NCBI GenBank assembly: GCA_026400845.1
Contig: JAPLOH010000037.1
Span: 1-45,543, forward strand
Reading direction: 5' to 3'
DNA length: 45,543 nucleotides
Origin: Alphaproteobacteria bacterium
Lineage (GTDB): Bacteria > Pseudomonadota > Alphaproteobacteria > Acetobacterales > Acetobacteraceae
In this document: positions 6,384 through 23,610 of the stretch, in pieces
How the letters are laid out: each line of letters starts with the position of its first letter
Position numbering within the stretch: position 1 is the first letter of the stretch
Position numbers and translations under genes: made by a program
Notes under the pieces: model-generated
Seen by the model: the letters and a program-made list of their open reading frames with translations, nothing else
The model's database searches: none
Told to the model about the DNA's origin: nothing

Positions 6384-7364
6384 ATGAGCGCGTTACTTGA
6401 GGTGAGCGGCCTGCGCGTCCGCTTCAACGAGAAGGCCGAGGCGGTGCGTGGCGTTTCGATCACGGTCAACAAGGGCGAAACGCATTGCCTGGTCGGCGAA
6501 AGCGGTTGCGGCAAGTCGGTCTCGGCGCTGGCGGTGATGGGGCTGCTGGCCAAGGGCGGCATCCGTACCGCGGATGCGTTGTCCTTCGCCGGGCAGGATT
6601 TGCGCGGCCTCACGGAGGGCCAGATGTCCCGCCTGCGCGGCGACAAGATGGCGATGATTTTCCAGGAGCCGATGACCTCGCTGAACCCCGCCTACACCAT
6701 CGGCTCGCAAATGGCCGAAGTGCTGGTGCGTCATCGCGGCGGCTCCAAGCGCGCGGCGCTGGACCGCGCGGCGGCCCTGCTCGGCCGCGTCGGCATCACC
6801 GCGCCTGGCCTGCGGCTTGGCCAGTTTCCGCATCAGCTTTCGGGCGGCCTGCGCCAGCGGGTGATGATCGCCATGGCGCTGATGTGCGACCCCGACCTGC
6901 TGATCGCCGACGAGCCGACCACCGCGCTCGACGTGACGGTGCAGGCGCAGATCCTGCGGCTGCTGATGGAACTGCAGGCCGAGCTCGGCCTCGCCATCCT
7001 GCTGATCACCCATGATCTCGGCATCGTCGCGCGCATGGCGCACCGGGTGAGCGTGATGTATGCGGGCAAGGTGGTGGAGAGTGCCTCGGCCGAGGCGCTG
7101 TTCGCGGCACCCACCCACCCCTATACGCGCGGCCTGCTGGATTGCGTTCCGATCCCCGGCAAGATCGCCCGCGGGGCGCCGCTCGGCAGCATTCCCGGCA
7201 CCGTGCCGCGCATTTCGCTCGGCTTCCAGGGCTGCGGTTTTCGCGACCGCTGCGGCCATGCCGATGCGAGTTGCGCGCAGGACGTGCCGGCGCAGTCGTT
7301 CGCCGAGGGTCATGACTATGCCTGCCGCCTGCCCGCCGGCTGGGCCACGGAGCGGGCAGCATGA
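6384..7364 (+). CDS. ABC transporter ATP-binding protein, DppD-like
   Basis: This 326-residue ATPase has Walker A GESGCGKS, signature LSGGLRQR, Walker [13 protein letters not shown] and the switch histidine in LLITHDLG. The C-terminal oligopeptide/dipeptide extension carries [12 protein letters not shown] and a cysteine cluster ([17 protein letters not shown]) that resembles the iron-sulfur-type motif of DppD/OppD relatives. The ATG at 6384 was chosen because GGAG lies nine bases upstream; an upstream in-frame TTG lies inside the hairpin repeat. It overlaps the next ATPase gene by ATGA. It should pair with the DppF-like subunit to power the upstream permeases, and possibly also the ATPase-less permease pair at 12053-13821 (inference). 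Confidence 0.93.
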
Positions 7365-8305
7365 GCGCGACCATCGAGATCCGTGACGTCGCGAAGATCT
7401 TCCGCCAGTTCTCCGGCGTGTTCACCGCGCCACGCATGGTGCGCGCGGTGGATGGCGTATCGCTCACCGTACCCGCCGGCGGCTGCTTCGGTATCGTCGG
7501 TGAATCCGGCTGCGGCAAGTCCACTCTGGCGCGGCTGATCCTCGGCCTGCACCCGGCCAGCAGCGGCGATATCCTGGTCGACGGGCGCTCGCTGATGGCG
7601 ATGCCGCGCCGCGAGCGCGCCCGGCTGATCCAGCCGGTATTCCAGGACCCGTTCTCCTCGCTCAACCCGCGCCGCAGCATCCATGACATCGTTGGCCTGC
7701 CGCTGGCCGCGCAGGGAATTTCCGGCTCGGAGATCACCAAGCGGGTGCACGCGATGCTCGAGCGGGTCGGCCTGCGCGCCGAGATGGCTGGCCGCAGTCC
7801 GGCGCAGCTTTCAGGTGGCCAGCGCCAGCGCGTGGCGATCGCCCGTGCCCTGGTGCTCGGCCCGCGCATCGTGGTGTGCGACGAACCGACCTCGGCGCTC
7901 GACGTGTCGGTGCAGGCGCAGATCCTCAATCTGCTCGCCGATCTGCGCCGTGACATGGGGCTGACCCTGGTGTTCATCAGCCATAATCTCGCGGTGGTGG
8001 AGCATATCTGCGACGAGGTGGCGGTGATGTATCTCGGCCGCGTCGTCGAGCACGCCGAAACCGACGCGCTGTTCCGCGCCCCCACCCACCCCTATACCCG
8101 CGCCTTGCTGGCCTCGGTGCTGACGCCCGAGCCCGGCCTCGGCATCCCCGATGTCGGGCTGGGCGATGCCTATCCGGACCCCGCCAACATCCCGCCCGGC
8201 TGCCGCTTCCACCCGCGCTGCCCGATGGTGACGGCGGCGTGCCGCACAGAGTTGCAAGTGCCGCGCAGGGTCGGCGAACGTGTGGTGGAGTGCATGCTGG
8301 CCTGA
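7361..8305 (+). CDS. ABC transporter ATP-binding protein, DppF-like
   Basis: The 314-residue product carries Walker [10 protein letters not shown], signature LSGGQRQRVAIARAL, Walker B VVCDEPTSALD and switch region FISHNLAVVEH. The C-terminal domain has HPYTRALLASVL followed by PPGCRFHPRCPM, as in OppF/DppF proteins. The start overlaps the stop of the DppD-like gene by four bases, so the two ATPases are translationally coupled. It is the last gene of the operon; the next gene is a cytochrome 77 bases downstream with its own promoter-like sequence. Confidence 0.93.
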   Translation: MSATIEIRDVAKIFRQFSGVFTAPRMVRAVDGVSLTVPAGGCFGIVGESGCGKSTLARLILGLHPASSGDILVDGRSLMAMPRRERARLIQPVFQDPFSSLNPRRSIHDIVGLPLAAQGISGSEITKRVHAMLERVGLRAEMAGRSPAQLSGGQRQRVAIARALVLGPRIVVCDEPTSALDVSVQAQILNLLADLRRDMGLTLVFISHNLAVVEHICDEVAVMYLGRVVEHAETDALFRAPTHPYTRALLASVLTPEPGLGIPDVGLGDAYPDPANIPPGCRFHPRCPMVTAACRTELQVPRRVGERVVECMLA

Positions 8306-8316
8306 CCAGAACGCGC

Positions 8317-8345
8317 TTGCCGCACTGCGGCATGACGGCTTAAAG
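8317..8345 (+). promoter_or_regulatory. Candidate promoter of the cytochrome c gene
   Basis: TTGCCG (8317-8322) and TTAAAG (8340-8345) are separated by 17 bases, a sigma-70-like arrangement 38 bases upstream of the cytochrome c ATG. The -10 element overlaps a dyad. It was found by eye, with no transcript evidence. Confidence 0.4.
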
Positions 8346-8360
8346 CGGCGGCGTTTAAGC
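8338..8360. promoter_or_regulatory. Dyad upstream of the cytochrome c gene
   Basis: GCTTAAA and TTTAAGC form a perfect 7-bp inverted repeat with a nine-base GC spacer. It overlaps the predicted -10 element and ends 22 bases before the cytochrome ATG, the expected position for a repressor site. I do not recognise the consensus. Confidence 0.35.
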
Positions 8361-8382
8361 GCCTTGTCCGGAGGTTTTCATC

Positions 8383-8754
8383 ATGCGTGCATTCGCTACC
8401 ATGGCTGTGCTGGCCGCGGCCCTCGCCCTCGCACCGCCCGCCGCCGCCGCCGACCCCGAGAGCGGCCAGAAGATTTTCAAAACCCAGTGCGGCGCCTGCC
8501 ATGCCGTCGCCGCCGGCCGCAATCTCGTCGGCCCCAGCCAGTTCGGCATCGTCGGGCGCAAATCCGGCTCGGTCGAGGGGTTCCGCTACTCGGCGGCCAA
8601 CAAGGCGGCGAACCTCACTTGGGATGCCGCGACGCTCGATACCTATCTCACCAACCCCAAGGCGATGATCCCCGGCACCACCATGACCTTCGCCGGGATC
8701 AAAAGCGCCGAGCAGCGCGCCGACGTCATCGCCTATCTCGCCACGCTGAAATAG
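8383..8754 (+). CDS. Class I c-type cytochrome, cytochrome c2-like
   Basis: This is a 123-residue periplasmic electron carrier. A signal peptide covers about residues 1-22 (ends APPAAA). The heme-attachment motif is C36-G-A-C-H40, and the distal methionine is M101 in PGTTMTFAG, the classical class I placement. After heme attachment the protein would shuttle electrons between membrane complexes. It lies directly upstream of a Cyc2-like outer-membrane heme protein on the same strand, so it may be that protein's periplasmic electron partner (inference). A GGAG-containing ribosome site precedes the ATG. Confidence 0.93.
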   Translation: MRAFATMAVLAAALALAPPAAAADPESGQKIFKTQCGACHAVAAGRNLVGPSQFGIVGRKSGSVEGFRYSAANKAANLTWDAATLDTYLTNPKAMIPGTTMTFAGIKSAEQRADVIAYLATLK

Positions 8755-8767
8755 GTCCAGCCAATCC

Positions 8768-8799
8768 GCGGGGTCGTTGATTGAAGTCAATGACCCCGC
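8768..8799 (+). promoter_or_regulatory. Strong RNA hairpin between the two cytochrome genes
   Basis: Two 13-base arms (8768-8780 and 8787-8799) pair throughout, with one G-U pair, around a six-base loop. There is no T-run after it, so it is a poor intrinsic terminator. It could be an mRNA stability or processing element that sets different levels of the two proteins, or an operator. It lies 46 bases before the heme-barrel start codon. Confidence 0.5.
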
Positions 8800-8845
8800 C
8801 AGCCATGCGCCCATGCTCCCCCCCGAATGGACGGGGAGAAGGACC

Positions 8846-10210
8846 ATGCAGGGTTTACGATCAGCAATCACCGGGGCAGCGGCCGTGACCGCCGCCCTCA
8901 TCGGGTTCGCCCGCACGGCGGAAGCGGTTCCCAGCTTCGCCGCCCAGACCGGGCAGCCCTGCGCGGCCTGCCATGTCGGCGGCTTCGGCCCGCAACTCAC
9001 CCCATTCGGACGGGCCTTCAAGATCGGCGGCTTCACCCAGGGCGGCGGCGAGGACACGCTGCGCGACAAGATACCGTTCTCGGCGATGGTGCTGACATCG
9101 TTCACCAACACGGCGAAGGCGCAGCCGGGGCCGGCCTCCCAGCACTTTTCCAGCAACAACAACTTCGCGATCGACCAGGTCAGCATCTTCTACGGCCATC
9201 GCGTGAACGACTATGTCGGCGCGCTGGTGCAGGCGACCTATAGCGGCGTCAACGGCGCATCGTCCGACCCCGCGGCGTCGAGCCTGTTCCTCGACAACAG
9301 CGACATCCGCGTCACCGCGCCGTTCGAATATGGCGACTCCACCATCCGGCTCGGCATTTCGCTGAACAACAACCCCACGGTGCAGGACCCCTACCACACC
9401 ACCTTCGCCTGGGGCTTCCCCTACGTCTCCTCGCCGCTGAACCTGACGCCGGGGGCCAATCCGCTGCTGGCCGGCAGCTTCGCCGGCTCCAGCATCGGCG
9501 CCACCGCCTATGCGTGGTGGAACAACGCGCTCTACGTCGAATTCGGCGGCTATCGCGCGATGGACCAGGGCATGGCCAAGAAATTCGGCGTCTTCCCGGG
9601 CATCGGCACCATCAGCGGCGTCGCGCCCTATGGACGCATCGCCTATGAGTGGAACTGGAATGGCCAGTCCGCCCATGTCGGCCTGCTCGGCATGTCCGCC
9701 GCCGTCCAGCCCAACTACATCGCCGGCATCGGCACCGACAAAACCGACCTCGCGGCCGATGCCTCCTACCAGTTCATGGGTGACGGCACCCATATCTTCA
9801 CCCTCCAGGCGATCGGCCTGCACGAGATGCAGTCGCTCGGCGCCACCGCCGGACAGGGGGGCGCGGATCGCGCCAAGCACACGCTCGATCAGGTGCGCCT
9901 CAACGCCTCCTACTATTACCAGAACACCTATGGCCTGACGGTCGGCCTGGTCCGCACCTGGGGCACCTCGGATGCCACCTACTACGGTACCAACAGCGGG
10001 CGGCCGAGCAGCACCGGCCTGCTGCTCGAGGCGGACTGGATCCCCTTCGGCAAGGAAGGCAGCTGGGGCGCGCCGCTCGCCAACCTGCGCTTCGGCGCGC
10101 AGTTCACCGCCTTCACCGAGTTCGACGGCGCGGTGAAGAACTACGACGGCGCCGGGCGCAATGCGCGGGACAACAACACGCTCTACCTCTTCACCTGGCT
10201 CATCTTCTGA
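8846..10210 (+). CDS. Cyc2-like outer-membrane monoheme cytochrome fused to a beta-barrel
   Basis: The 454-residue product has a signal peptide (about residues 1-27, ending TAEA). A single heme site follows, C39-A-A-C-H43 in GQPCAACHVGG, then LTPFGRAFKIGGF. The remaining roughly 380 residues are rich in alternating aromatic, Gly, Asn and Ser strands and end in phenylalanine, as outer-membrane beta-barrels do. One N-terminal heme ahead of a porin-like barrel is the layout of Cyc2, the Fe(II) oxidase of Acidithiobacillus, and Cyt572 of Leptospirillum. Many uncharacterised relatives share it, so iron oxidation is a hypothesis. The ATG at 8846 was chosen for the GGGAGAAGGA before it. The upstream soluble cytochrome could take electrons from it. 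Confidence 0.75.
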   Translation: MQGLRSAITGAAAVTAALIGFARTAEAVPSFAAQTGQPCAACHVGGFGPQLTPFGRAFKIGGFTQGGGEDTLRDKIPFSAMVLTSFTNTAKAQPGPASQHFSSNNNFAIDQVSIFYGHRVNDYVGALVQATYSGVNGASSDPAASSLFLDNSDIRVTAPFEYGDSTIRLGISLNNNPTVQDPYHTTFAWGFPYVSSPLNLTPGANPLLAGSFAGSSIGATAYAWWNNALYVEFGGYRAMDQGMAKKFGVFPGIGTISGVAPYGRIAYEWNWNGQSAHVGLLGMSAAVQPNYIAGIGTDKTDLAADASYQFMGDGTHIFTLQAIGLHEMQSLGATAGQGGADRAKHTLDQVRLNASYYYQNTYGLTVGLVRTWGTSDATYYGTNSGRPSSTGLLLEADWIPFGKEGSWGAPLANLRFGAQFTAFTEFDGAVKNYDGAGRNARDNNTLYLFTWLIF

Positions 10211-10232
10211 CCGCCCACGGATAACCTACGCC

Positions 10233-10268
10233 GCCGCCGGCCGTGCCCCCGCATGGCCGGCGGCTTTC
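10233..10268 (+). terminator. Likely terminator after the heme-barrel gene
   Basis: GCCGCCGGCC (10233-10242) and GGCCGGCGGC (10255-10264) are perfectly complementary across a 12-base loop and are followed by TTTCGT. The T-run is short but the position, 23 bases after the stop codon, fits an intrinsic terminator. Confidence 0.6.
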
Positions 10269-10336
10269 GTGTCAGAGGCCCCGGAATCGCACGGCTCGGC
10301 CATTGACCACGGCGCGACGGACGACGAGAAACAGGC

Positions 10337-11191
10337 ATGACCATACCGCGCCGTGCCCTCGTTTCCGGACTCATCGCCGCCTCAGCGATACGGCGTCCCG
10401 CTGCCGCCCAGATGGCCTTTGGGGTGGACGCAGCGCCGGCCGCAAGCCCTGTGAAACCCCGCTGGCAGCGCAACGCGGCGCCGACGCCGCGGCATGACGG
10501 CCGCCCCGTGATCACCCTGGTGATCGACGACATGGGCGTCGTGCACCCTGGCACCAACCGCGTGATGGCCCTGCCCGGCCCTCTTACTTTGGCGTGGTTT
10601 CCATTCGCGCACGCCCTGTCGCAACAGGTCGCCGAAGCCACCAGCCGTGGCCACGAAGCAATCCTGCACATGCCGATGCAGGCCAATGGCCGCTCCACCG
10701 CCTGGACCGGGCCCGACCCGCTGCGCGTGGACATCGCGCCCGAGGAAAACCTCCGCCGCCTCCAGGCCGCGCTTGATGCCGTGCCCGCCACCGTCGGCCT
10801 CAACAACCACATGGGCAGCGTCGCCACCCTCGACGGTCCGCTGATGGCAATTGTCGCCGCCGAGGCCAGGCGGCGCGAGATGCTGGTGCTCGACAGCCTC
10901 ACCATTCCGCACAGCATGGTCTATCGCGAGGCGATCAACGCCGGCGTGCCGGCCGCCGCGCGGGACGTGTTCATCGACCCAATGGCCTCTGCCACCGTGA
11001 TCCGCCAGCAACTCGTCCAGGTTGAAGCGATCGCCAGCCGCTACGGCCACGTCATCGCCATCGGCCACCCCTGGCCGCTTACCATCGACGCGCTGGAAAA
11101 CTGGATGCCCGGGCTCGCCGACCGCGGTTTTGCCCTGTGGCCGCTCTCGGCCACGGTGGCGTGGCGGAACGACATCCGTCTCGCGGTGTAG
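10337..11191 (+). CDS. Divergent polysaccharide deacetylase family protein (YibQ/DUF610 type)
   Basis: This 284-residue protein matches the divergent polysaccharide deacetylase family in its ordered motifs: ITLVIDDMG near residue 57, ILHMPMQ, GLNNHMGS, DVFIDPMA and VIAIGHPWP. The first about 25 residues (RRALVSGLIAASAIRRPAAA) look like a twin-arginine or Sec signal, so the product is probably exported. The aspartate pair and histidines suggest a metal site like that of NodB-fold deacetylases, but the substrate of this family is not established. It stands alone between a terminator and a convergent gene, so context says little. Confidence 0.82.
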   Translation: MTIPRRALVSGLIAASAIRRPAAAQMAFGVDAAPAASPVKPRWQRNAAPTPRHDGRPVITLVIDDMGVVHPGTNRVMALPGPLTLAWFPFAHALSQQVAEATSRGHEAILHMPMQANGRSTAWTGPDPLRVDIAPEENLRRLQAALDAVPATVGLNNHMGSVATLDGPLMAIVAAEARRREMLVLDSLTIPHSMVYREAINAGVPAAARDVFIDPMASATVIRQQLVQVEAIASRYGHVIAIGHPWPLTIDALENWMPGLADRGFALWPLSATVAWRNDIRLAV

Positions 11192-11213
11192 CGCCCGGCC
11201 GCGGGCCGGGCGC
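11191..11213. terminator. Hairpin between convergent genes
   Basis: GCGCCCGGCC and GGCCGGGCGC form a perfect 10-bp stem with a GCG loop. It fills the 30-base gap between the convergent deacetylase and dehydrogenase genes. There is no T-run on either side, so it would act as a pause or factor-assisted terminator for both strands. Confidence 0.5.
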
Positions 11214-11221
11214 CGCCCCAC

Positions 11222-12022
11222 TCAGCGCGGCTTGAGGCCAACCCCCGACCCGGCAGAGCCGGTGCGGCCGCCGTCGATCACCATCTGGGTGCCGGTGATG
11301 GAGCCGGCGAGGTCCGAGCACAGATAGATCGCGAGGTTGGCCACTTCTTCTGCGGTGGCGTAGCGGCCGGATGGGATGGCAGCGCGGTTGGCGGCGATCA
11401 CCGCGTCGGGGTCCTCCGGGTTCCGCTGGGCTTCGAGCGAGCGCATCATGCGGGTATCGACCGGGCCGGGGCAGATCGCGTTCACCCTGAGGCCGAAGCG
11501 GGCGACGTCGGCGGAGGCCGATTTGGTGAGCCCGATCACCGCATGCTTGGAGGCGATATAGGCGGACATGCCGGGGCCGCCGACGAGGCCGGCGATGGAG
11601 GCGGTGTTGACCACCGCGCCGCTGCCCTGGCGCAGCATCACCGGCAGCACGTGCTTCATGCCGAGAAACACGCCGCGCAGGTTGATGGCGATCACGCGGT
11701 CGAACATCTCCTCGTCATAGTCCATGATCGGGGCGGTTTTGCCCTCGATGCCGGCGTTGTTGAAGAAGCAGTCGATGCGGCCATAGGCGTCGAGCGTGGC
11801 TTTCACGTAGTTCTGCACGTCGGCGGATTTCGAGACGTCGGCGGGGATGAACCGGACGTCGCGGCCCTGCTGGTGCAGGATGTCGGCGGTGCCCTGGCCG
11901 AGCGTAGCGTCGCGATCGACCACCACCACCTGAGCGCCGCGCTCGGCGAAACCCACTGCCGCGGCCCGGCCGATGCCGCCGCCACCGCCGGTGATGAGGG
12001 CCACTTTTCCGGTGAAATCCAT
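11222..12022 (-). CDS. Short-chain dehydrogenase/reductase (SDR)
   Basis: The 266-residue product is a classical SDR. It has the nucleotide-binding motif TGGGGGIG (residues 11-18), NNAG (88-91), and catalytic S142, Y155 and K159 in the YIASK motif. The PGPVDTRMM segment and the C-terminal GTQMVIDGGRT are also standard. D36 at the end of the second strand (VVVVDRD) favours NAD over NADP. It is the last gene of a minus-strand operon with a binding protein and two permeases, so it probably oxidises or reduces the imported compound or a derivative of it (inference). The substrate is unknown. Confidence 0.92.
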   Translation of the reverse strand: MDFTGKVALITGGGGGIGRAAAVGFAERGAQVVVVDRDATLGQGTADILHQQGRDVRFIPADVSKSADVQNYVKATLDAYGRIDCFFNNAGIEGKTAPIMDYDEEMFDRVIAINLRGVFLGMKHVLPVMLRQGSGAVVNTASIAGLVGGPGMSAYIASKHAVIGLTKSASADVARFGLRVNAICPGPVDTRMMRSLEAQRNPEDPDAVIAANRAAIPSGRYATAEEVANLAIYLCSDLAGSITGTQMVIDGGRTGSAGSGVGLKPR

Positions 12023-12052
12023 GGTTTCGTTCTTCCCTAACTCTTTAACCGG

Positions 12053-12877
12053 TTAGCGCATGATGCGCCGCATGCGCGGGTCGAGCGCATCGCGCAACCC
12101 GTCGCCAAGGAGGTTCAGCCCGAGTACGAGCATGGCGATCGCGACCCCCGGCGACAGCGCGATCCATGGCGCCTCGACCATGTTGTCGCGCCCGTCGGCG
12201 ATGATCGAGCCCAGGGTCGGCCGCGGCGGTGGCGGGCCGACGCCGACGAAACTCAGCACCGCCTCGGCGAGAATGGCGATGGCGAACACATAGGTCTGCT
12301 GCACCACCCAGGGTGCGGCGCAGGCCGGCAGCACGTGGCGATAGAGCAGCCGCATGGTGCGCGCACCCACCGCGCGGGCGGCCTCGACATAGTCCTGCGA
12401 GCGGGCCACGAGCACCGCGCCGCGCATCACCCGCGCGGTGCGCGGCGTGTAGGCGACGGACAGCGCGATCACCACGGTACCCTCGCTCGGCCCGAGCGTG
12501 GCGGCCAGCGCGATCGCCAGCAGCAGGCCGGGGAAGGCCATCAGCCCATCCATCACCCGCATCAGCCAGACATCGACGCCGCGCCACCAGCCCGAGACCA
12601 ACCCGATGAACCCGCCGGCGAGGCCCGAGACCACGGCGACGATGAGGGCGATGCGCAGCGACACCTGGGCGCCGAACAGGATGCGGCTCAGCACGTCCCG
12701 CCCGTAGCGGTCGGTGCCGAGGAGGAACACGTCATCCGGCACGCCGAGGCGGTTGCGATAATTGTTCTTCACCGGGTCGAACGGTGCCAGCCAGTCCGCG
12801 GCCAGGGCTGCCAGCACGACCAGGGCGACCAGGGTGAGACCGATAGCGAAGTTCCGCCGGGCGAGCAGGGACCTCAT
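12053..12877 (-). CDS. Peptide/opine-type ABC permease, DppC-like (ATPase-less operon)
   Basis: This 274-residue permease has an N-terminal helix (FAIGLTLVALVVLAALAADWL), the family motif LLGTDRYGRDVLSRILFG, an EAA loop (DYVEAARAVGARTMRLLYRH) and the terminal GLNLLGDGLRDALDPR. The ATG at 12877 was chosen because it overlaps the stop of the upstream DppB-like gene (ATGA); longer frames enter that gene. No ATPase genes are present in this operon, unlike the set at 4556-8305. The dehydrogenase gene follows after 30 bases. Confidence 0.92.
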   Translation of the reverse strand: MRSLLARRNFAIGLTLVALVVLAALAADWLAPFDPVKNNYRNRLGVPDDVFLLGTDRYGRDVLSRILFGAQVSLRIALIVAVVSGLAGGFIGLVSGWWRGVDVWLMRVMDGLMAFPGLLLAIALAATLGPSEGTVVIALSVAYTPRTARVMRGAVLVARSQDYVEAARAVGARTMRLLYRHVLPACAAPWVVQQTYVFAIAILAEAVLSFVGVGPPPPRPTLGSIIADGRDNMVEAPWIALSPGVAIAMLVLGLNLLGDGLRDALDPRMRRIMR

Positions 12878-21213: not shown

Positions 21214-23610
21214 ATGGCGACCTATAGTTGGAACGGCGGCTCCGGCGTCTGGACTCTGGCATCGAACTGGACGGTCGGCGGCATCCCCGCCACCGTCAGC
21301 CCCGGCGCATCCGACGACGTGGTGATCGCCGCGGCCGGCGTCTACACGATTTCGCTCGGCACCGCGTCGGCCGCCTCGCTCACGCTGACCGATCCGAACG
21401 CGTCGGTGGTGATCGGCGGCGGCTTGACCGTGCAGGGCAGCCTCACCAATGCCGGGACGATCAAGCTCGCGACCGGTGCGTCGCTGACCGACCTGGGACA
21501 AAGCGGCGCATTTTTTACCAATAGCGGCAGCATTGTCGTCGGCAACGGTGGCTCGCTGACGATCTTCGCGGCGGCTACCACGGCCGGGCTGGGCACGCTG
21601 GTCAACAACGGCGGCAACATGGCGCTGACGCTGGTGCTGGACAATACCGGCGCGGTGTTCGTGCCGCCTTCGGTTGGCAGCAACGGCTGGATCGCGGGTA
21701 CCGTCTTTCATGGCGTGATTTCGACCGGCGCGGGAGCGAAGTTCGGCAACATCCTCAATTCCGGCGTGCAGCTCGTCGGCGTGACCGTCGACGGCGGACT
21801 GTATCTCGAAGGTGCCAACGGCAGCATCACCGGCGGAATTACCCTGCACCAGGCAGACGGCACCGGTGCGGGCACGCTGACGGTGGACGGGAATCTGAAC
21901 ATTCTCGACACTGAGAGCCTGGACAACGGTACCCTCACGCTCAGCCCCGCGATCTTCGGCGGCTTCGGCAATTCGCTCAACGTGTGGAACGGCGTGACGT
22001 TCGGCCCCGGCTTCACGCTGAAGAGCCCGGAGGGCGGCTATGGCACCGCCATGACCGGCGCCGGCGGCGTGGTCAACCAGGGCACGATCAGCGCACAGCA
22101 ACCGCTCTATGTCACCACGGCCTCACTGACGAATTCCGGCCTGATCGCGACCGGCACCAATTTTATCAACTTCGGGATGCTGTCACGGCCCGGACCATCG
22201 CTGACGACCTTCAACACCACCGACGGCATCGTCACCAACGACGGCATCGTGCTGTCCGGGGGCGGCGACGTGGTGTTTCGCGGCTCCGTGCTTGGCAGCG
22301 GCACCATCGCAGTCTCCGCCAACGGTACGATCAACGGCGCCATCGAAATGACTGGCTTCTACGACCGGCAGGTGTTTGCCTTCCTCGACAGCAGCGCGAG
22401 CCTGCTGAAGTTCGACGCGCCGTCAGGCATCAACGCGGTGCTCGGCTTCCGGCCCGGCAACACCATCGAATTGGTCGGCACGCCGGCCAGCGTCGTGTTC
22501 AACAACACCACGTTGAGCGTGCAAAGCGGCGGCACCACAATCGCCGGCTTCGTGCTGCCCGACGTGGCGCCCGGCTGGTCCTTTCAGGCGACCACCGACG
22601 CCTTCGCCAACACCTTCATCACCGAAATCCCCTGCTTTGCCGCGGGCACCAGGCTCGCCACAGCGGAGGGCGAAGTCCCGGTCGAGCAGCTTCGCGAGGG
22701 CGACCTTCTGCGCACTGCCGGCGGCGCGCTGGCCCCGGTGCGCTGGATCGGCCGCCGCACCGTCAACTGCGCCCGCCACCCAAGGCCGTGGGACGTACTA
22801 CCCATCCGCGTTGCCGCCGGTGCTTTCGCCCCCGGGCAACCCCTGCGGGACCTGTGGCTGAGCCCGGACCACGCGGTGTTCCACGCCGGCCACCTTATCC
22901 CGGTGCGCTACCTCCTCAACGGCCGCACGATCCGTCAGGTCGAGGTGGAGAGCGTCACCTATCTCCATGTCGAACTGCCCGCGCATGATATCGTGCTGGC
23001 GGAGGGGCTCGCGTGCGAATCCTATCTCGACACCGGCAACCGCGCGGCGTTCGCCGGCGCCATTACCGACCTGCACCCCGATTTCGCCCGCGCCGCCTGG
23101 TCCCGTGCCGCCTGGACCCGTGCCGCCTGTGCGAAGCTGGTCATCGACGGCCCCATCCGCACCGCCGCCCGCCGCCATTTGCTGGCCCGCGCCGAGGCGG
23201 GCGGGCATCGGCTGACGAATGATCCCGGGCTCGTCATCGCCAGCGGCCCACGCATCCTGTCGCCCTTCGTGGCCGGGCCAAACTGGCGGCTCACCGTGCC
23301 GGACGGCGGTGCCGTCGATCTGCGCTCCCGCGCCTTCATCCCGGCCCACACCCGAGCCGATGCGGACGACACCCGCCGGCTCGGCGTTGCCATCGCCAAT
23401 CCGCGGATCGATGGCAGGGCGATCCCGCTCGACCACCCCTGCTTTGGCGCCGGCTGGCACGCCCCCGAGCCGGACTGGCGCTGGAGCGATGGCATGGCCC
23501 GCCTGCTGCTGCATGGCGGGGCGGAATTTGCGTTCGATCTCGTCATGGCCGGCCGCTACTGGGCGGACTGCGCGCCCGCCGTGCTTCCCACGCGGGCGCT
23601 GGTTGCCTAG
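21214..23610 (+). CDS. Hint-domain protein with a repeat-rich beta passenger
   Basis: The 798-residue protein has three parts. Residues 1 to about 470 are Gly/Thr/Asn-rich short repeats (LTNAGTIKL, LTNSGLIATG, FVNNGGN-type turns) like adhesin or autotransporter beta-helices. A Hint (hedgehog/intein) domain begins at C474 (PCFAAGTRLATAEGE), with VEQLREGDLL, PVRWIGRRTV, LSPDHAVFHAGHLIPVRYL and LAEGLACESYLDTGN. About 200 C-terminal residues, unassigned, follow. Hint domains can cleave the bond before the cysteine. There is no classical signal peptide; related proteins are thought to leave by type I secretion, but no export genes lie here. A three-unit 15-bp tandem repeat encodes ARAAWSRAAWTRAAC. 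A paralogue lies at 27656. Confidence 0.83.
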   Translation: MATYSWNGGSGVWTLASNWTVGGIPATVSPGASDDVVIAAAGVYTISLGTASAASLTLTDPNASVVIGGGLTVQGSLTNAGTIKLATGASLTDLGQSGAFFTNSGSIVVGNGGSLTIFAAATTAGLGTLVNNGGNMALTLVLDNTGAVFVPPSVGSNGWIAGTVFHGVISTGAGAKFGNILNSGVQLVGVTVDGGLYLEGANGSITGGITLHQADGTGAGTLTVDGNLNILDTESLDNGTLTLSPAIFGGFGNSLNVWNGVTFGPGFTLKSPEGGYGTAMTGAGGVVNQGTISAQQPLYVTTASLTNSGLIATGTNFINFGMLSRPGPSLTTFNTTDGIVTNDGIVLSGGGDVVFRGSVLGSGTIAVSANGTINGAIEMTGFYDRQVFAFLDSSASLLKFDAPSGINAVLGFRPGNTIELVGTPASVVFNNTTLSVQSGGTTIAGFVLPDVAPGWSFQATTDAFANTFITEIPCFAAGTRLATAEGEVPVEQLREGDLLRTAGGALAPVRWIGRRTVNCARHPRPWDVLPIRVAAGAFAPGQPLRDLWLSPDHAVFHAGHLIPVRYLLNGRTIRQVEVESVTYLHVELPAHDIVLAEGLACESYLDTGNRAAFAGAITDLHPDFARAAWSRAAWTRAACAKLVIDGPIRTAARRHLLARAEAGGHRLTNDPGLVIASGPRILSPFVAGPNWRLTVPDGGAVDLRSRAFIPAHTRADADDTRRLGVAIANPRIDGRAIPLDHPCFGAGWHAPEPDWRWSDGMARLLLHGGAEFAFDLVMAGRYWADCAPAVLPTRALVA

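Follow-up and report, generated by a model that had tools for sequence, protein, structure and literature searches.

A window of 45,543 nucleotides (contig JAPLOH010000037.1 of assembly GCA_026400845.1, from an alphaproteobacterium of the Acetobacteraceae) carries a gene pair encoding a class I cytochrome c and a heme-barrel protein of the Cyc2 lineage, and a candidate low-oxygen regulatory box that lies between the two genes recurs before the heme-barrel gene in many relatives. The reality of the pair, beyond chance, is confirmed by the heme motif in its relatives, by a barrel that aligns throughout, and by the clustering of cytochrome genes near the heme-barrel gene. As the best explanation, with about an even chance of being right, we propose a Cyc2-lineage conduit that would carry electrons across the outer membrane, be switched on at low oxygen, and most likely run inward.

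A candidate low-oxygen box recurs before the heme-barrel gene

Three features of the window, all on the same strand, carry the argument:
8383..8754, + strand: class I c-type cytochrome, 123 aa, likely the periplasmic partner (Pfam PF00034, Cytochrom_C, 2.8e-10)
8777..8790, + strand: TTGATTGAAGTCAA, a 9/10 match to TTGAT-N4-ATCAA (FNR/FixK-type box), a candidate site by comparison with relatives
8846..10210, + strand: Cyc2-lineage heme-barrel gene, 454 aa with a C-terminal Phe (by sequence, homology, and tree)

Comparisons were made on the best 80 of 330 confirmed relative stretches in the GTDB genome collection, 77 of which share the heme motif of the window protein within a long open frame; L051, L062, and L072, with no motif call, were left out, and L015 and L135 were likewise excluded from the alignment and counts for an absent motif call. 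Start codons were assigned by rule, taking an ATG about 36 residues ahead of CXXCH, which makes distances approximate, and loci with fewer than 200 bases before the gene were omitted from the box test, which kept 76.

In 40 of these 76 loci, the window among them, the 250 bases before the heme-barrel gene contain a match of at least 9/10 to TTGAT-N4-ATCAA, which we take to be the FNR/Anr/FixK box consensus; 22 of these matches are perfect, and 34 of the 40 lie at positions -60 to -102. The same score occurs in 2.2% of random 250-base windows drawn from these loci, a null that includes windows overlapping true sites. Among all 1024 five-base arms, TTGAT came first (40 loci), followed by TTGAC, one base different (15 loci), and the other 19 arrangements of the TTGAT letters were seen in 0 or 1 of the 76 loci. 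In five loci (L041, L043, L047, L050, and L052), the box stands before the upstream cytochrome gene instead, giving a total of 45/76. Among cultured carriers of the sub-lineage of the window (described below), Rhodopila globiformis DSM 161 has a 10/10 box, and Acidisphaera rubrifaciens has a 9/10 box ahead of its cytochrome gene. The box was also present in 18 of 42 loci retained when proteins were less than 65% identical to one another and in 6 of 17 further relatives (L113-L129). Four CRP/FNR-type regulators (HTH_Crp_2) score over the cut-off in the genome of the window, two of them (L184, L185) with an in-frame ExxSR, presumably the FNR-type recognition residues. Read from sequence, the box suggests that oxygen, or a related signal like NO, controls the gene rather than iron; since an FNR/FixK-type box recurs, low-oxygen use of the pair is predicted. 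No published FNR-type box before cyc2 was found in limited full-text literature searching.

The box of the window also lies within a predicted RNA fold:
8768..8799, + strand: 14-pair GC-rich hairpin between the two genes, box inside, no T tail (fold of 8755-8845, z -4.66)

As a conserved RNA element, this hairpin was rejected: with the box fixed and its flanks shuffled, p<=0.05 was obtained in just 5 of 18 loci with an upstream cytochrome and in 2 of 22 without. GC-rich arms of differing sequence surround the box in some relatives too.

A class I cytochrome is linked to the heme-barrel gene

The sequence-only reading had described a soluble class I cytochrome c followed, on the same strand, by a signal-peptide protein with one N-terminal CAACH and a porin-like tail ending in Phe, and both descriptions proved accurate. 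The cytochrome has its heme motif at residues 36-40, Met101 lies in PGTTMTF, and CXXCH, a C-terminal Met ligand, and PF00034 together place it in the class I c2/c550 type:
8488..8502, + strand: heme motif CGACH of the cytochrome
8683..8685, + strand: Met101, likely the sixth heme ligand of the cytochrome, a role that we take from general knowledge of the family

The NCBIfam c-550 CycA model matches it at 1.1e-30, with 106.5 bits against a cut-off of 240, and it is not assigned as a CycA equivalog because this score lies below the cut-off. Two more relatives of this cytochrome (63% and 38% identity) are encoded in the genome.

Of 77 loci, 48 have a match to the cytochrome of the window within 1 kb of the heme-barrel gene and on its strand, 31 of them upstream and 17 downstream; some of the 29 loci lacking it have little flank. 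Cytochrome matches fall with distance from the gene, from 0.349 per kb in the first kb to 0.072, 0.039, and 0.008 thereafter, and none was found at 4-8 kb in ~415 kb. Moreover, all 4 plasmid relatives examined (of 9) have an annotated c-type cytochrome 3' of the heme-barrel gene, and the one from Caballeronia has a HiPIP gene before it. This linkage bears on the hypothesis of a heme-sensing or iron-handling porin without a respiratory role (e.g., in Fe(II) detoxification or sensing), next to a general cytochrome co-regulated by chance. Such a porin appears unlikely, as the linkage survives the change of gene order. Carriers, by record title among the best 80, include Acidisphaera rubrifaciens, Rhodopila globiformis, Limobrevibacterium gyesilva, and Nitrosomonas sp. 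Nm34, as well as Thiomonas, Methylomicrobium sp. RS1, and Uliginosibacterium gangwonense. That nitrifiers, a methanotroph, and others not known as iron oxidizers are among them speaks for such a porin. A sensor role has also been suggested for Cyc2 (PMC12442390).

Several arrangements around the gene in relatives can be recorded here. The Caballeronia HiPIP gene (L144:2924-3235) precedes the pair with a 9/10 box of its own, and in Methylocystis (L145:5624-7603) three c-type cytochrome genes lie 3' of the heme-barrel gene. Two neighbors seen in L065 recur, namely a 178-residue protein (9336-9869) that has relatives in 15 loci and a membrane-like protein of 185 residues (10282-10836) that has them in 9, neither with a Pfam match. 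In Uliginosibacterium gangwonense, two heme-barrel genes of different sub-lineages (L100:7929-9290 and 11105-12580) are ~1.8 kb apart. A plasmid record labelled Acidithiobacillus ferrooxidans YQ-N3 (L142:5890-7257) holds a relative whose scores are identical to those of the Acidiphilium cryptum plasmid relative and which overlaps an annotated transposase gene; transfer or a record mix-up is possible.

The heme-barrel protein belongs to the Cyc2 lineage

Membership of the Cyc2 lineage is supported by architecture, homology, and tree. The features of the protein are as follows:
8846..8926, + strand: predicted signal peptide, 27 aa, ending AEA (by eye; A25 and A27 invariant in a 17-row alignment)
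8924..8950, + strand: AVPSFAAQT, the Cyc2 motif with Arg changed to Ala (sequence against the published motif)
8960..8974, + strand: heme motif CAACH of the heme-barrel protein, residues 39-43
8990..8998, + strand: PQL (PXL motif), five residues after CAACH
9077..10204, + strand: predicted 16-strand barrel, mature residues 51-426 (AlphaFold2 model)

The start was placed at ATG 8846, which has a purine-rich stretch directly 5', a TTG start (477 aa) giving merely the longest frame; at 454 aa, the protein exceeds the 365-residue length minimum for Cyc2. The AlphaFold2 model (window protein plus 77 relatives; pLDDT 92.0, pTM 0.89) shows four short N-terminal helices followed by 16 strands of 9 to 16 residues each. 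The sequence-only reading had made the structure prediction a check of its claim, and this check came out in its favor, with a confident 16-strand barrel whose nearest solved folds are general porins: OmpC (Z 21.9, rmsd 3.9, 304 residues), OprO (Z 20.6), and, in a second structure search, OprP (E 6.2e-8), each presumably 16-stranded. In the published description of Keffer et al., OprO and OprP are structural relatives of Cyc2 (PMC8406198). The barrel would be located in the outer membrane. Of three matches at E <=0.001 in a viral fold library, two were named porins. Azurins, the sole kind of match in a PDB profile search, reached at best E 0.091 and were judged chance.

The likeness to common porins, and the absence of a named Pfam or NCBIfam family for the barrel, speak for an ordinary porin with an incidental CXXCH; a PDB sequence search named nothing for the barrel either. 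We nevertheless hold this hypothesis to be very improbable: the surroundings of the heme motif are invariant, the protein is homologous to the heme-barrel of a rus operon, and a cytochrome is linked to it. Both Cys and the heme His, then a Pro, a Gly, and a Phe, are identical in 76 of 76 rows, distant ones included (residue counts exclude L165 and L167), and, because rows were selected by the heme motif, independent evidence comes from the Pro, Gly, and Phe alone. Lys32 (mature numbering) is the sole potential heme ligand besides the heme His to be kept in all 76 rows counted; it is Arg in L167, outside that count, and Met in L133, which is not in the tree. No invariant Met or further His that could serve as sixth ligand was found among the 76 rows.

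The barrel is alignable along its whole length with relatives, and heme-barrel relatives occur in 43 of 150 genomes of the same family and in 89 of 398 genomes of the phylum. The key comparison is with the anchor genome G792, in which a heme-barrel gene heads a one-strand run of cupredoxin-like, CoxB, CoxA, CoxC-like, CtaA, CtaB, and rusticyanin genes; this G792 protein, and not the chromosomal Cyc2 of At. ferrooxidans, represents the rus side throughout. By NCBIfam, the one member of this run to exceed its cut-off is heme O synthase; CoxB, CoxA, and rusticyanin score below theirs (for rusticyanin a near-miss, 137.2 bits against 146.7), CtaA is weak, and the cupredoxin and CoxC were assigned by appearance and position. 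The same rus operon layout is found in Acidihalobacter, there with cyc1 and coxD too (PMC10654088); for these two genes, no frame of at least 110 residues was seen in the G792 run. The protein of the window aligns with the G792 rus-operon heme-barrel at 31% identity over residues 16-454 (E 3e-60). The label "Cyc2-like" given by the sequence-only reading thus holds, on full-length homology to a rus-operon heme-barrel, a predicted 16-strand barrel, and a recurrent cytochrome.

In quick maximum-likelihood trees (78 rows, with one long branch, L167), the window falls in a 48-row group with support 99. This group is made up of the rows whose spacer from CXXCH to PXL is five residues long with Gly in last place (xxxxGPxL), and the same 48 rows lie on one side of a branch with support 98 in a barrel-only tree from which the heme domain was removed. 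The spacer needs two changes in all, because three other rows carry five residues without that Gly. The two rows of G792 lie outside the 48-row group, yet on the same side of a starred branch as the window and away from f38, a group that is probably Zetaproteobacteria. The window protein shares D123, N124, D126, R128, D154, R237, D274, D278, and E300 (mature numbering) with both G792 heme-barrels, and only N124, R237, and D278 of these nine with all 12 f38 rows; the shared charged or polar barrel residues suggest a common pore chemistry on the rus side.

Evidence against the proposed reading

A number of results weigh against a low-oxygen Cyc2-type conduit, and the first of them concern the box. 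Four places in the window have at most one mismatch to it, so that a 9/10 match is unremarkable there. It is absent in 36 of 76 loci, or in 31 of 76 when the region before the upstream cytochrome is counted. None of the 11 f38 rows searched has it (L139 with fewer than 100 searchable bases), nor does the G792 rus-operon heme-barrel gene, the second heme-barrel of that genome having a 9/10 match only at -250, and it was not found at 9 or better before the heme-barrel gene in the 4 plasmid relatives examined of 9. Within the genome of the window, its own paralogue matches at 6/10 only, and so does its own ccoN, tried as a positive control, which failed.

Other results concern the motif and the partners. 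The sequence AXPXFAR[Q/K][T/Y] has been called unique to Cyc2 (PMC8406198), and its Arg is Ala in the protein of the window (AVPSFAAQT). The PXL motif lies one residue farther from CXXCH than published, with five residues between them instead of four. Genome searches gave no rusticyanin, HiPIP, or photosystem match, and a single RuBisCO-type match (58.6 bits against a Pfam cut-off of 30.1) to which no form is assigned. A rusticyanin search in 369 genomes of the class of G250 gave some match in 64 and one over the curated cut-off; G738, the sole genome with that match, has no heme-barrel family match.

For the motif, the spread among relatives is informative. Of 78 tree rows, 46 retain the Arg and 32 lack it, with at least 7 changes on the quick tree. 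PXL spacing is not strict, since the spacer is three residues in the rus-operon heme-barrel, four in the f38 rows, and five in the window. Judged by the strict motif, the protein lacks one defining feature, whereas architecture, homology, and tree place it in the lineage; it is therefore filed as a variant.

A model of the conduit and the direction of electron flow

In the model that we propose, a CRP/FNR-family regulator acting on the TTGAT-N4-ATCAA box would turn the gene on at low oxygen. The barrel would sit in the outer membrane, its one N-terminal heme plugging the opening on the periplasmic side, so that a small extracellular redox species could enter the pore and swap an electron with the plug heme. 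The adjacent class I cytochrome c would then shuttle electrons between the plug heme and the inner membrane. The donor may be Fe(II) or another reduced extracellular compound at an oxic-anoxic boundary, and electrons flowing inward via the cytochrome c to a cbb3 or aa3 oxidase would provide extra energy for a heterotroph.

Inward Fe(II) oxidation is our first choice of direction: no other reading is as simple, and it agrees with the three Cyc2 proteins that have been tested biochemically. These three representatives, one per published cluster, have biochemical evidence of Fe(II) oxidation (PMC8406198), which argues against the same conduit running outward and exporting electrons at low oxygen to extracellular Fe(III) or humic acceptors. 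Outward Fe(III) reduction is still a serious rival, which we consider possible and clearly less probable than inward flow. The low-oxygen box is what outward flow would lead one to expect, and a heme-barrel relative is present on a plasmid of Acidiphilium cryptum, a genus that we take to lie within the wider family of the window. Acidiphilium reduces Fe(III) at low oxygen, in one species apparently via an oxygen-inducible system (PMC8790237), and the stand-alone Cyc1B/Cyc2B cluster of At. ferrooxidans rises in anaerobic Fe(III)-reducing growth (PMC7735108). However, on H2 plus Fe(III), this B pair is less abundant than the A pair of the rus operon (PMC7735108), and the A. ferrooxidans plasmid relative with scores equal to those of the Acidiphilium one is without the box. 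The box fits low-oxygen use and does not decide between oxidation and reduction.

Genomic context of the pair

In the genome of the window (5.4 Mb, 97.8% complete), an aa3 oxidase scores above the curated cut-off and a cbb3 oxidase is present in pieces, namely ccoN fragments on two contigs with ccoP and ccoG over the cut-off. The earlier statement that the pair stands without terminal oxidase or rusticyanin genes holds for its neighborhood; aa3 and cbb3 oxidase genes lie elsewhere in the genome, in which no rusticyanin match was found. Around the pair, an oligopeptide ABC transporter cluster lies before and a divergent polysaccharide deacetylase gene after, with no rusticyanin or cox genes among these neighbors. 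The pair had been placed at 8317-10268, a span slightly too wide, as the genes occupy 8383-10210; they are separated by 91 bases. A possible end of the unit lies 3' of it:
10233..10264, + strand: terminator-like hairpin with a T tail (3 such against 1.3 expected, both strands, 8200-10400)

Rfam and tRNA scans of the window gave no match.

A second heme-barrel copy, 43% identical, is encoded elsewhere in the genome (L173:8604-9962, - strand, contig C7). After it, in the same orientation, comes a multicopper oxidase gene (7160-7981, - strand; PF07731) with a run of unknown bases in its frame; a metal-oxidase partner is conceivable. What may be a nitrogen-oxide cluster lies at G000:C314:7578-14016 (L175), where a CRP/FNR regulator has as neighbors a divergent heme-copper oxidase subunit and a heme protein that matches beta-propellers weakly. 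The window itself also encodes, at 21214-23607, a protein of 798 residues that contains a Hint_2 domain and weakly matches a family of hyphal cell-wall proteins.

Comparison with known systems

Like the rus-operon Cyc2 of Acidithiobacillus, Acidiferrobacter, and Acidihalobacter, the protein of the window has a single N-terminal heme and a barrel; unlike them, its pair has no rus, cup, or cox neighbors and its motif Arg is Ala, and, compared with G792, its spacer is longer and a box lies in front. By description, a similar arrangement is the Cyc1B/Cyc2B of At. ferrooxidans, a two-gene unit of cytochrome and Cyc2 outside the rus operon (PMC7735108). That pair is tied to anaerobic growth, as the box would suggest for the pair of the window; the Cyc1 of At. 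ferrooxidans is diheme (PMC10937671) and the cytochrome of the window a monoheme class I protein. With the Cluster 1 Cyc2 of Zetaproteobacteria and Gallionellaceae, as probably represented by f38, the resemblance is in the heme domain, which is clearly homologous to that of f38 (profile E values as low as 1e-21 across roughly the first 130 positions). The f38 barrel is too diverged for a profile match, and the f38 rows differ from the window in spacer and in having no box. MtrAB, MtoAB, and PioAB likewise transfer electrons across the outer membrane, as proposed for this pair, through a multiheme cytochrome in a separate 26-strand porin (PMC8406198), whereas the protein of the window has one heme, fused to a predicted barrel of 16 strands.

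The kind of system, the pairing, and its presence in Acetobacteraceae are already known. Acetobacteraceae Cyc2 homologues, the same gene pair in the same bacterial family as many of our record titles, are often adjacent to mono- or diheme cytochromes (PMC10715153), so that the pair itself is not new and the novelty hinted at by the sequence-only reading is not supported. The box and the motif variant find no mention in the portion of that account available to us. As far as limited searches go, what appears to be new is above all the recurrent low-oxygen box; the spacer-defined sub-lineage and the repeated Arg change would be new to the same extent and may already appear in published supplements.

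Significance

The cyc2 gene is widely used to label bacteria as iron oxidizers. A large part of Clusters 2 and 3 has no more than a distant relationship to proteins tested so far, with verification pending (PMC8406198), homologues occur in humic-bog and mine-drainage bacteria, some without such a reputation (PMC6344600, PMC8357290), and the expression of cyc2 in Sideroxydans sp. CL21 does not follow iron oxidation (PMC12442390). With a repeatedly changed "diagnostic" Arg, a strict motif rule would miss many such proteins. The recurrent FNR/FixK-type box would link these genes to oxygen, not iron, making their time of use directly testable and, through it, the role of such proteins in bacteria that do not oxidize iron. 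A broader hypothesis, rather doubtful at present, is that the stand-alone pair belongs to a low-oxygen regulon in many heterotrophic, phototrophic, and nitrifying Pseudomonadota and moves electrons chiefly outward, or both ways, as a minimal one-heme reductase of Fe(III) or humic substances. If this were true, a gene read as a marker of iron oxidation would instead mark low-oxygen extracellular electron exchange.

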